DNA from: Haloarculaceae archaeon
GTDB taxonomy: Archaea; Halobacteriota; Halobacteria; Halobacteriales; Haloarculaceae
DNA length: 34,911 nucleotides
Reading direction: 5' to 3'
Assembly: GCA_018609945.1 (NCBI GenBank)
Contig: JAHENO010000035.1
Coordinates: forward strand, 1 to 34,911
The notes beneath the pieces are model-generated. The model was not told the DNA's origin and made no database searches. It saw nothing but the letters and a program-made list of their open reading frames with translations. Shown here one piece after another: positions 20,527 through 23,403 of this stretch. A program made the position numbers and the translations under genes. Every line of letters begins with the position of its first letter. Within the stretch, counting starts at the first letter, position 1.

Positions 20527-20544
20527 ATAACCAGGCACCCGCGT

Positions 20545-20628
20545 GTCGTGGTAGCCAAGCCTGGCCCAAGGCGCAGGGTTGCTAACTCTGTGGCGCAAGC
20601 CTCCGGGGTTCGAATCCCCGCCACGACG
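20545..20628 (+). tRNA. tRNA-Ser (anticodon GCT)
   Basis: An 84-nt class II tRNA. The acceptor strand gtcgtgg pairs with ccacgac, with discriminator G at 20628. The anticodon stem cagg(g)/ctctg encloses the loop TTGCTAA, anticodon GCT (reads AGC/AGU). A long variable arm 'ggc-gcaa-gcc' and the T arm cgggg-ttcgaat-ccccg are present. CCA is not encoded and no intron is seen. It is the first element of the ribosomal cluster, 20 nt before rps13, and must be processed out of the common transcript. Confidence 0.95.
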
Positions 20629-20648
20629 TGCATCACACATACATATCC

Positions 20649-21149
20649 ATGAGTGCAGAAGAACCAGCGGACGAAGACGACGACCTCAGATACTTCGTCC
20701 GCATCGGCCAGACAGACCTAGACGGCACCAAGTCAGTCGAGCGGTCGCTGACGGAGATGAACGGTATCGGTCGCCGAGCAGCCCGCCTCATCGCAGAACG
20801 GGCCGGCGTCGACCGCCGGAAGACGCTGGGCGCGCTCGACGACGACGACATCGACGAGATCGTCGCGCTCGTCGAGGGCTTCGCCGAGGAGGTCCCGGAG
20901 TGGCTCACCAACCACCAGAACGACTTCTTCGGCGGCGAAACCACCCACGAGATCGGCAACGACCTCGAACTGACGCGGCGCCAGGACATCAACCGCATGA
21001 AGATGATCGACTCCTACAAGGGCGTCCGTCACAAGCGCGGCCAGAAGGTACGCGGCCAGCGCACCAAGTCGACGGGCCGCACCGAGGGGACCATCGGCGT
21101 CAACGTCGAGGCGATCAAGGAAGAACAGGAAGAGGAGGCCGAGGACTGA
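20649..21149 (+). CDS. rps13: 30S ribosomal protein S13
   Basis: A 166-residue archaeal S13, located in the head of the small subunit and contacting P-site tRNA and the intersubunit bridge. A helix-hairpin-helix '[17 protein letters not shown]' lies around residues 38-54. The family C-terminal motif is '[28 protein letters not shown]', followed by an acidic tail (EEQEEEAED) typical of halophiles. The ATG at 20649 ([12 protein letters not shown]) was chosen over the track start, because the upstream residues would lie on the tRNA 3' side. Its TGA overlaps the S4 ATG by one base. Confidence 0.97.
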
Positions 21150-22055: not shown

Positions 22056-22799
22056 ATGGAGGAGTACGACGTCCAGTTCGTCGACAGGGACGACCGCGAA
22101 GCCCGGTTCGTCGTTCGGCCGATCTCGCCCGCCTTTGCCAACGGCATCCGCCGGGCGATGATCGCGGACGTGCCGACGTTCAGCATCGACACGGTCCGCT
22201 TCATCGAGAACTCCAGCGTGATGTTCGACGAGCAGATCGGCCTCAGACTGGGGCTGATCCCGCTGACGACGCCGCTCGATGACTTCGAGGTCGGCGACAC
22301 CGTGACGCTGTCGCTGGACGTCGAGGGGCCGGATACGGCCTACTCCGGCGACCTGGTCTCCAGCGACACGATGGTCGAACCTGCCGACAGAAACGTCCCG
22401 ATCATCGACCTCAAGGAGGGCCAGCGCCTCGAAATCGAGGCCGACGCCGTCCTCGATACGGGCCGGGAACACGCCAAACACCAGGGTGGCGTCGCGGTCG
22501 GCTACCGCCACCTCCAGCGCGTCGAGGTGGTCGGCGACCGACCCGAGTTCGCCGACGACGAGGCCAACATCCTGCGCGGGGTCATCGAGGAGGACGGCGA
22601 CCTCGTCCCGACGGAGGAGTTCGACCACGACCTCACGAACCGGTATCCGGAGTCGGAACTGACCGTCGAGGACGTCCCGAACGCCTTCGTGTTCCACGTC
22701 GAGACCGACGGCTCGGTCACCGTCGACGACCTGGTCGTCCGGGCCGTCGACACCATCGAGAGCCGCGCGAACGAACTGCGAGAGGCAGTCCAGTTATGA
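22056..22799 (+). CDS. rpoD: DNA-directed RNA polymerase subunit D (Rpo3)
   Basis: A 247-residue subunit D, the archaeal counterpart of the bacterial alpha N-terminal domain and eukaryotic Rpb3, which pairs with subunit L to start polymerase assembly. It begins [45 protein letters not shown], the alpha-like dimerisation core, followed by the insertion domain and the C-terminal '[24 protein letters not shown]'. No cysteine occurs anywhere in the protein, so the Fe-S cluster found in some archaeal D subunits must be absent. The track ORF begins upstream at 21687; the ATG at 22056, 2 nt after the S11 stop, is correct. It is followed by 150 nt of structured non-coding DNA before tRNA-Leu. Confidence 0.97.
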
Positions 22800-22803
22800 G
22801 CGG

Positions 22804-22929
22804 CGACCGTCTCCACACCCGGTCGGTCCCGACGCGAGTGATTCGCGAACGGGACAGTCCGGATCCGCGTGCGGTCCCGGCACCGTCGGAGAGCGACGGG
22901 TGCCGGACCGAAAGCGGTTTGTGGAGACG
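22804..22929 (+). other. Strong nested inverted repeats between rpoD and tRNA-Leu (possible structured RNA)
   Basis: Three local stems occur: cgaccg/cggtcg (22804-22825); gtcccg-a-cgcga/tcgcg-aa-cgggac with loop gtgat (22826-22855, 11 bp); and gtcccggcaccgtcg/cgacgggtgccggac (22874-22908, about 14 bp with two bulges). In addition, 'cgtctccaca' (22808-22817) is perfectly complementary to 'tgtggagacg' (22920-22929), which would close the two larger hairpins into one domain at the expense of the first. I do not recognise a known RNA family. Confidence 0.5.
22908..22924 (+). promoter_or_regulatory. Probable promoter of the tRNA-Leu/L18e segment
   Basis: 'ccgaaag' (BRE-like) and 'gtttgtgg' (weak TATA), ending 26 nt before the tRNA. 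It overlaps the right arm of the long-range inverted repeat. Confidence 0.45.
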
Positions 22930-22949
22930 CGCGGTAGGCAAAAACGCGA

Positions 22950-23034
22950 GCAGGGATAGCCAAGTCAGGCCAACGGCGCAGCGTTCAGGGCGCTGTCCCG
23001 TAGGGGTCCGCAGGTTCAAATCCTGCTCCCTGCA
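22950..23034 (+). tRNA. tRNA-Leu (anticodon CAG)
   Basis: An 85-nt class II tRNA. The acceptor gcaggga/tccctgc has discriminator A at 23034. The anticodon stem cagcg/cgctg holds the loop TTCAGGG, anticodon CAG (reads CUG). The variable arm 'ccc-gta-ggg' and the T arm gcagg-ttcaaat-cctgc are clear. No intron and no encoded CCA. It sits between rpoD and L18e, 18 nt before the latter, and marks the start of the second half of the ribosomal cluster. Confidence 0.96.
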
Positions 23035-23040
23035 CTTTTC

Positions 23041-23046
23041 AGGAGG
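23041..23046 (+). promoter_or_regulatory. Shine-Dalgarno site of L18e
   Basis: 'aggagg' 6 nt before the ATG at 23053. It is one of few strong ribosome-binding sites in a window dominated by leaderless or overlapping starts, as expected for a gene downstream of a tRNA. Confidence 0.65.
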
Positions 23047-23052
23047 ACCGAC

Positions 23053-23403
23053 ATGAGCAAGACGAACCCGCGACTGCGCAGTCTCATCGCTGACATGAAG
23101 TCGGCTGCCCGCAACTCCGGCGGCGACGTCTGGAGCGACGTCGCCGAGCGCCTCGAGAAACCGCGGCGCACGCACGCCGAAGTCAACCTGGGCCGCATCG
23201 AGCGGTACGCCAGGGAGGAGGAGACGGTCGTCGTGCCGGGCAAGGTGCTCGGCAGCGGCACGCTCCGCAAGGAGGTAACCGTCGCCGCCGTCGACTTCTC
23301 GGGCACTGCAGAGACGAAGATAGACCAGGTCGGCGAGACTGTCCGACTCGAACAGGCACTCGAAGACAACCCGGAGGGCGCGAACGTGCGGGTGATCCGA
23401 TGA
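23053..23403 (+). CDS. rpl18e: 50S ribosomal protein L18e
   Basis: A 116-residue archaeal/eukaryotic-type large-subunit protein (related to bacterial L15). It begins [53 protein letters not shown] and continues '[28 protein letters not shown]', diagnostic for L18e. The length is normal. It has a good Shine-Dalgarno site and overlaps L13 by 4 nt (ATGA). Confidence 0.97.

Follow-up and report, generated by a model that had tools for sequence, protein, structure and literature searches.

The tRNA-Leu(CAG) gene of a Haloarculaceae archaeon stands in the middle of a chain of ribosomal-protein and RNA-polymerase genes, and the 150-nt gap that separates it from the upstream gene rpoD is dense in self-complementary sequence. 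This raises the question of what the gap encodes, and of how the gene chain continues past the embedded tRNA. The window, meaning the whole stretch of DNA analysed (34,911 nt), carries in order tRNA-Ser, rps13, rps4, rps11, rpoD, tRNA-Leu(CAG), rpl18e, rpl13, rps9, rpoN, rpoK, eno and rps2, as assigned with ARAGORN and a list of open reading frames (ORFs). Nearly all other junctions of the cluster in the window are ATGA, GTGA or TGATG overlaps or gaps of a few nucleotides, so the tRNA would be the lone break in a coupled chain were it not for a frame, here designated orfX, that begins at the rpoD stop, crosses the tRNA-Leu promoter and the entire tRNA-Leu, and ends at the start of rpl18e. The strongest signal in the gap is this reading frame and not a stem; it was not considered in the preliminary description, which dealt with RNA stems. 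The features of the locus are as follows.

22056..22799, + strand: rpoD (RNA polymerase subunit D), the upstream gene (ORF list, sequence)
22797-22799, + strand: stop codon TGA of rpoD, sharing ATGA with the orfX start
22796..23056, + strand: orfX, putative bridging ORF of 86 codons (ORF list, sequence, comparison of gaps)
22804..22825, + strand: S1, local 6-bp stem; cannot coexist with P1; not conserved
22808..22817, + strand: 5′ arm of the long-range stem P1, 12-21 nt 3′ of the A of the orfX ATG
22826..22855, + strand: S2, local 11-bp hairpin, not kept among relatives
22873..22909, + strand: S3, hairpin with a constant GGAGAGCG apex (loop GAGAG, 22889-22893); covaries in some Haloarculaceae
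22909..22923, + strand: tRNA-Leu core promoter, BRE-like CGAAA (22909-22913) and TATA-like GGTTTGTG (22916-22923); kept in 181 distinct gaps
22920..22929, + strand: 3′ arm of P1, extending from the 3′ half of the TATA-like box into the adjoining downstream DNA
22950..23035, + strand: tRNA-Leu (CAG), entirely within orfX (ARAGORN, Rfam)
23041..23046, + strand: Shine-Dalgarno-like AGGAGG 5′ of rpl18e, inside orfX (sequence)
23053..23403, + strand: rpl18e, the downstream gene, its start shared with the orfX stop (ORF list)
23054-23056, + strand: stop codon TGA of orfX, overlapping the rpl18e ATG (23053-23055)

Our preferred reading, to which we give a probability of roughly 0.6, is that orfX is an unannotated ORF that bridges rpoD to rpl18e, with ribosomes carried across by termination-reinitiation. 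The locus is the same tRNA-Leu, rpl18e, rpl13, rps9 locus as the halobacterial S9 operon, which was reportedly found to be a single transcription unit in Haloarcula work of the 1990s; to our knowledge, no frame linking rpoD to rpl18e has been described for it. The tRNA-Ser(GCT) of the window (20544-20649) ends about 20 nt 5′ of the rps13 start, so that each half of the cluster opens with a tRNA.

Conservation of the frame among haloarchaea

With rpl18e as bait, the locus was collected from 210 haloarchaeal records, in a comparative set that left out one family of the order (f6), and gave 181 distinct rpoD/tRNA-Leu gaps of 74-231 nt. A single block is kept throughout them, composed of CGAAA and then a GGTTT-type box and usually starting 41 nt 5′ of the tRNA. 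Because a like motif stands at equal spacing before other tRNA genes of the same genome (for example Ser-GGA, Ser-CGA, Leu-CAA and Ala-TGC), the block is assigned as the tRNA core promoter (BRE plus TATA). The exact long pattern centred on it occurs at most once per genome, at this locus only, in eight genomes. A generic tRNA promoter was rejected as the full explanation of the conservation, since it accounts for the 3′ arm of P1, not for the 5′ arm or the frame. Some families have a longer pre-tRNA leader, with 12-27 nt extra between promoter and tRNA-Leu (L084, L153, L159, L165, L177, L190, L199, L213, L216 and similar genomes), often including a small hairpin such as GTGCC-TACGA-GGGCAC.

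In nearly all species, an ATG beside the rpoD stop shares its frame with the promoter GAA, and no stop codon intervenes. The first ATG encountered from the rpoD stop onwards lies in the promoter frame in 177 of the 180 distinct gaps with a recognised motif; two of the remaining three have an in-frame GTG at -4 (GTGA), and one (L095) has neither. Relative to rpoD, the orfX ATG is distributed over the three frames (78/61/38), its distance from the promoter takes 36 values between 11 and 65 codons, and offset and length form 108 distinct combinations. An ATG in every rpoD frame and so many combinations mean that numerous insertions and deletions have been filtered for frame, rather than a spacing inherited. 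Between ATG and promoter, 5,073 codons contain no stop, compared with 69.6 expected from composition and 77 in a reversed control.

The same holds further downstream. In 177 of 179 cases, orfX reads the tRNA in one and the same frame, and the insertions found between promoter and tRNA in 17 genomes measure +12, +15 and +27 nt only, all multiples of three. In the two exceptions (L231 and L232), the spacing is one base shorter and the tRNA is read in a different frame, with rpl18e still reached; these two genomes amount to a natural frameshift test of the bridging idea. In 60 genomes tRNA and rpl18e lie at least 40 nt apart, and there the orfX frame has 0 stops while the two alternative frames have 45 and 23. 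The rpl18e start could be identified in 174 gaps, and in 168 of these the stop codon of orfX overlaps its ATG by 4 or 8 nt. This says little when tRNA and rpl18e are close together, since a stop is then met in either non-zero frame. In L275, a genome of 50% GC, orfX is retained and has 131 codons. In L181 and L187, orfX is in frame with rpl18e and free of stops to the end of the fetched stretch, so that a read-through fusion of the two is possible.

A bridging frame is not a general rule for haloarchaeal tRNAs: among the other tRNA genes of this genome, no coupled frame was seen, any ATG frame crossing the tRNA in 3 of 23 and in none of the five examined that have a near upstream gene. Taken together, the comparisons indicate that the start, openness and frame of orfX are under selection.

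Selection on the frame does not extend to the peptide. In the same 58 pairs of close relatives, substitutions between ATG and promoter fall almost evenly on the codon positions of orfX (139/175/154), as opposed to 121/71/526 at the end of rpoD, and 0.31 of the substitutions in orfX are synonymous, where 0.30 is expected. The three codon positions have a G+C of 0.69/0.74/0.76 in orfX and 0.77/0.34/0.85 in rpoD, the residues are mainly A, R, T, P, S and G, and no Pfam or NCBIfam model matches orfX. The even substitutions, the codon-position G+C and the missing family match together argue against selection on the peptide, which is probably a mere by-product. The sequences themselves establish that the frame exists and is conserved, that its ends overlap the neighbouring genes, that protein-level constraint is absent and that the P1 arms are complementary.

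Folding of the gap

The local stems of 6, 11 and about 14 bp that had been proposed for the gap are present at every coordinate given. S1 pairs 22804-22809 with 22820-22825 (CGACCG/CGGTCG, 6 bp), S2 pairs 22826-22831 and 22833-22837 with 22843-22847 and 22850-22855 (11 bp), and S3 is a bulged stem of about 14-15 bp between 22873-22888 and 22894-22909. The perfect 10-bp long-range pairing P1 (22808-22817 with 22920-22929, CGTCTCCACA/TGTGGAGACG) is likewise correct, as are its exclusion of S1, with which it clashes at 22808-22809, and its position over the tRNA-Leu promoter, where it covers part of the TATA-like box. The suspicion that this much pairing exceeds chance is borne out by a folding energy of -88.5 kcal/mol for the gap against -66.5 ± 4.3 in dinucleotide shuffles (z -5.07, 0 of 200 as stable), and P1, S2 and S3 are all present together in the minimum-energy fold.

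The stems differ in how far they are kept. S1 and S2 are already missing in a relative of the same genus (L002) and show no compensatory changes. The S3 hairpin recurs in 15 Haloarculaceae gaps, in which the GGAGAGCG apex is fixed and the stem sequence varies; 92.5% of cells are paired, and two-sided changes number 18, compared with 5.2 in shuffled and 0-6 in slid controls. The apex was the search key for this set, so the choice of set favours the innermost pairs of S3 and not the outer ones. When every gap bearing the apex is taken, with or without a stem (19 sequences), 84.2% of cells are paired and the 18 two-sided changes compare with 6.0 shuffled and 1-10 slid. In the window (22889-22893) and in relatives, the apex keeps a constant codon phase (E-S-G/D), usually 21-36 nt before the promoter GAA codon, and it is possibly a protein-binding loop.

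P1 is kept more widely. Averaged over the full set, duplexes have an energy of -24.4 kcal/mol between a gap's own arms and -19.7 kcal/mol between swapped arms, the own pairing being better in 164 of 179. The own 3′ arm is preferred by 39 of 43 dereplicated representatives (p 3e-8) and by 19 of 21 after stricter thinning, whereas a control segment from the middle of the gap prefers its own in 9 of 18. The preference falls to 28 of 43 (p 0.07) when solely the part downstream of the TATA box is used. Two-sided changes between close relatives retain P1 pairing in 14 of 31 cases against 36 of 120 in slid controls, a modest excess, and G.U versus A.C mismatches (118/98, compared with 117/159 in swaps) lean slightly towards the sense RNA at a window width of 14 and not at all at 18. 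We take P1 to be real, although its support as a selected RNA helix is no more than moderate. The proposal of an unannotated structured RNA therefore survives in part: pairing beyond chance, the retention of P1 across haloarchaea and the covariation of S3 in part of the Haloarculaceae make an RNA structure plausible, but S1 and S2 lack conservation or compensation, and the search for a catalogued RNA went against it, the tRNA being the sole credible match of the gap region in Rfam 15 at the gathering threshold and at E up to 10.

These observations bear on what else the gap could be. Its main function could be that of a structured cis-acting RNA, in which P1 and the inner hairpins form a three-way junction at the 3′ end of the rpoD mRNA, or in the 5′ leader of a read-through pre-tRNA, and control processing, stability or termination, the frame being secondary. 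The fold z-score, the preference of the P1 arms for their own partners and the excess of two-sided changes in S3 all point that way. The inner hairpins vary or vanish between families, however, in gaps of widely differing length, Rfam offers no match, P1 compensation in close pairs is modest, and such an RNA alone leaves the start codon, the in-frame insertions and deletions and the missing stops unexplained; we consider it unlikely. The inverted repeat could instead be a feature of the DNA, either promoter architecture or the product of template switching, with the open frame arising incidentally from high G+C and from conservation of tRNA and promoter. The 3′ arm of P1 is indeed promoter DNA, GC-rich DNA commonly has long frames, and the mismatch asymmetry that would favour RNA is slight at width 14 and absent at width 18. 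Chance, on the other hand, cannot yield an in-frame first ATG in 177 of 180 gaps over three rpoD frames, nor 0 stops in place of about 70, and the low-GC genome L275 keeps the frame. The open frame as a by-product of DNA or composition is strongly disfavoured, and this account as a whole is very improbable.

A third possibility is that orfX encodes a real small trans-acting protein; this would be a basic, disordered peptide, with the tRNA gene supplying the codons of its C-terminal half. In its favour, nearly all haloarchaea examined conserve the start, the frame and the C-terminal residues, and part of a subclade keeps the E-S-G/D triplet. The conserved residues nevertheless fall on promoter and tRNA, sequences that are kept for reasons of their own; the free part is without purifying selection on residues, and the codon-position G+C is unlike that of rpoD. 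With neither a family match nor residue-level selection, this candidate was rejected, and we hold it to have little chance of being correct.

Probable coupling at the junctions and a proposed role for orfX

The bridging of rpoD to rpl18e by orfX would draw on a mechanism known from haloarchaea. In Haloferax volcanii, nine of nine tested gene pairs with overlapping codons or 1-10 nt apart were strictly coupled by termination-reinitiation (PMC6728339). At 13-14 nt, coupling in this species drops by 40-60%, and a distance of about 22 nt abolishes it (PMC10666635). The distance from rpoD to orfX is at most 12 nt in 172 of 179 gaps, and both the rpoD-orfX and the orfX-rpl18e spacings lie within this reinitiation limit (PMC10666635) in most gaps. 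Shine-Dalgarno motifs do not support de novo initiation in H. volcanii leaders, and their removal cut reinitiation by 20-80%, depending on the pair (PMC6728339). A GGAG/GAGG motif is found 5′ of rpl18e in 154 of 177 species and in the 20 nt upstream of the orfX ATG in 15 of 179, which is rarer than at random places inside rpoD (50 of 179). With the motif so rare, restart at orfX may be weak or inefficient; its scarcity looks as if strong initiation were avoided.

In the proposed mechanism, ribosomes that end rpoD would restart at the orfX ATG through the overlapping start and stop codons, continue on a read-through mRNA over both the promoter and the body of tRNA-Leu, and restart again at rpl18e, which overlaps the orfX stop. 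The likely benefit would be unbroken translation of the ribosomal-protein/RNA-polymerase operon chain past the embedded tRNA gene. orfX would keep rpl18e coupled. It could also limit FttA-type polarity, in which termination takes place on untranslated RNA (see the discussion in PMC12548453), or spare the mRNA from being cut at the tRNA. Any of these three effects may be the benefit, and the data do not discriminate between them. P1 would pair early orfX codons with the promoter and leader region, and a ribosome starting on orfX would open it; P1 may therefore bar stray initiation while rpoD is untranslated. Alternatively, it may assist release of the tRNA from untranslated transcripts. Translation, read-through transcription, coupling, an effect on tRNA processing and the role of P1 are inferences.

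Several considerations weigh against bridging by orfX. Transcripts from the tRNA-Leu promoter, which lack the orfX start, can also yield rpl18e; translation of the tRNA would compete with its folding, and codon usage there is dictated by the tRNA; and read-through from rpoD is an assumption of the model. A more speculative form of the idea, which we regard as tentative and rather doubtful, is that this part of the RNA has two alternative fates, translation as mRNA, with the tRNA unfolded and the operon message intact, or folding and excision as tRNA-Leu. The flow of ribosomes arriving from rpoD, with P1 as the gate, would then decide how much leucine tRNA is made relative to ribosomal-protein mRNA.

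Related systems and origin of the gene order

The junctions of orfX resemble the termination-reinitiation pairs of H. volcanii (PMC6728339, PMC10666635), which overlap by 4 or 8 nt or lie a few nucleotides apart and include ribosomal-protein genes, and a Shine-Dalgarno-like motif likewise lies within the upstream ORF before rpl18e. They differ in that the middle partner is no gene of a known protein and holds a tRNA gene with its promoter, in that the rpoD-orfX junction is mostly without a Shine-Dalgarno-like motif, and in that coupling is here a prediction from sequence. Alphaproteobacteria offer another case of a complete sense tRNA enclosed by an ORF that overlaps the start codon of the following one: selC (tRNA-Sec) is nested in the selB ORF (PMC8124441). 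There the enclosing frame extends a genuine protein gene at its C-terminal end, whereas orfX is separate, short, archaeal and without residue-level constraint, and also contains the tRNA promoter. The internal ORF of mycobacterial MIRUs (described in PMC12548453) is short, overlaps its neighbours by 4 nt and probably preserves coupling across the insert; ATGA is likewise found at each end of orfX in the window. MIRUs are mobile repeats, unlike orfX, which is a single locus, kept over a whole archaeal lineage, and contains a tRNA. As with upstream ORFs that deliver ribosomes (reviewed in PMC12548453), the function would lie in translating the ORF and not in its product, although orfX joins two parts of an operon and is not a first leader ORF.

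A tRNA nested in an ORF (selC/selB, PMC8124441) and short ORFs that pass ribosomes on, MIRUs included (PMC12548453), are thus already known. Nothing on the rpoD/tRNA-Leu/rpl18e transcript was found in the literature that was searched. What seems to be new, as far as our search went, is the combination of a separate ORF with free residues, its occurrence throughout haloarchaea and its enclosure of a tRNA gene together with the promoter of that gene. Annotation pipelines generally call no genes across a tRNA, which is why this frame has apparently gone unnoticed, strongly selected though it is in nearly all haloarchaea examined. With its frame fixed and its residues free, orfX would be an unusually clean case of selection on translatability and not on product. 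Three questions thereby become accessible in a tractable archaeon: can ribosomes pass over a tRNA sequence that sits in an mRNA, does translation protect an operon against termination or cleavage at a tRNA embedded in it, and are the outputs of tRNA and ribosomal protein kept in balance by way of a single transcript?

Outside haloarchaea, rpoD and rpl18e are mostly 12-19 nt apart, without a tRNA between them. A distant member of the order (L259) has a 26-nt gap and an AT-rich tRNA promoter, without a bridging frame. In two distant archaea (L247 and L260), an intron-containing tRNA-Leu lies directly between rpoD and rpl18e, apparently without a promoter of its own, an arrangement that suggests that the order rpoD, tRNA-Leu, rpl18e is old.
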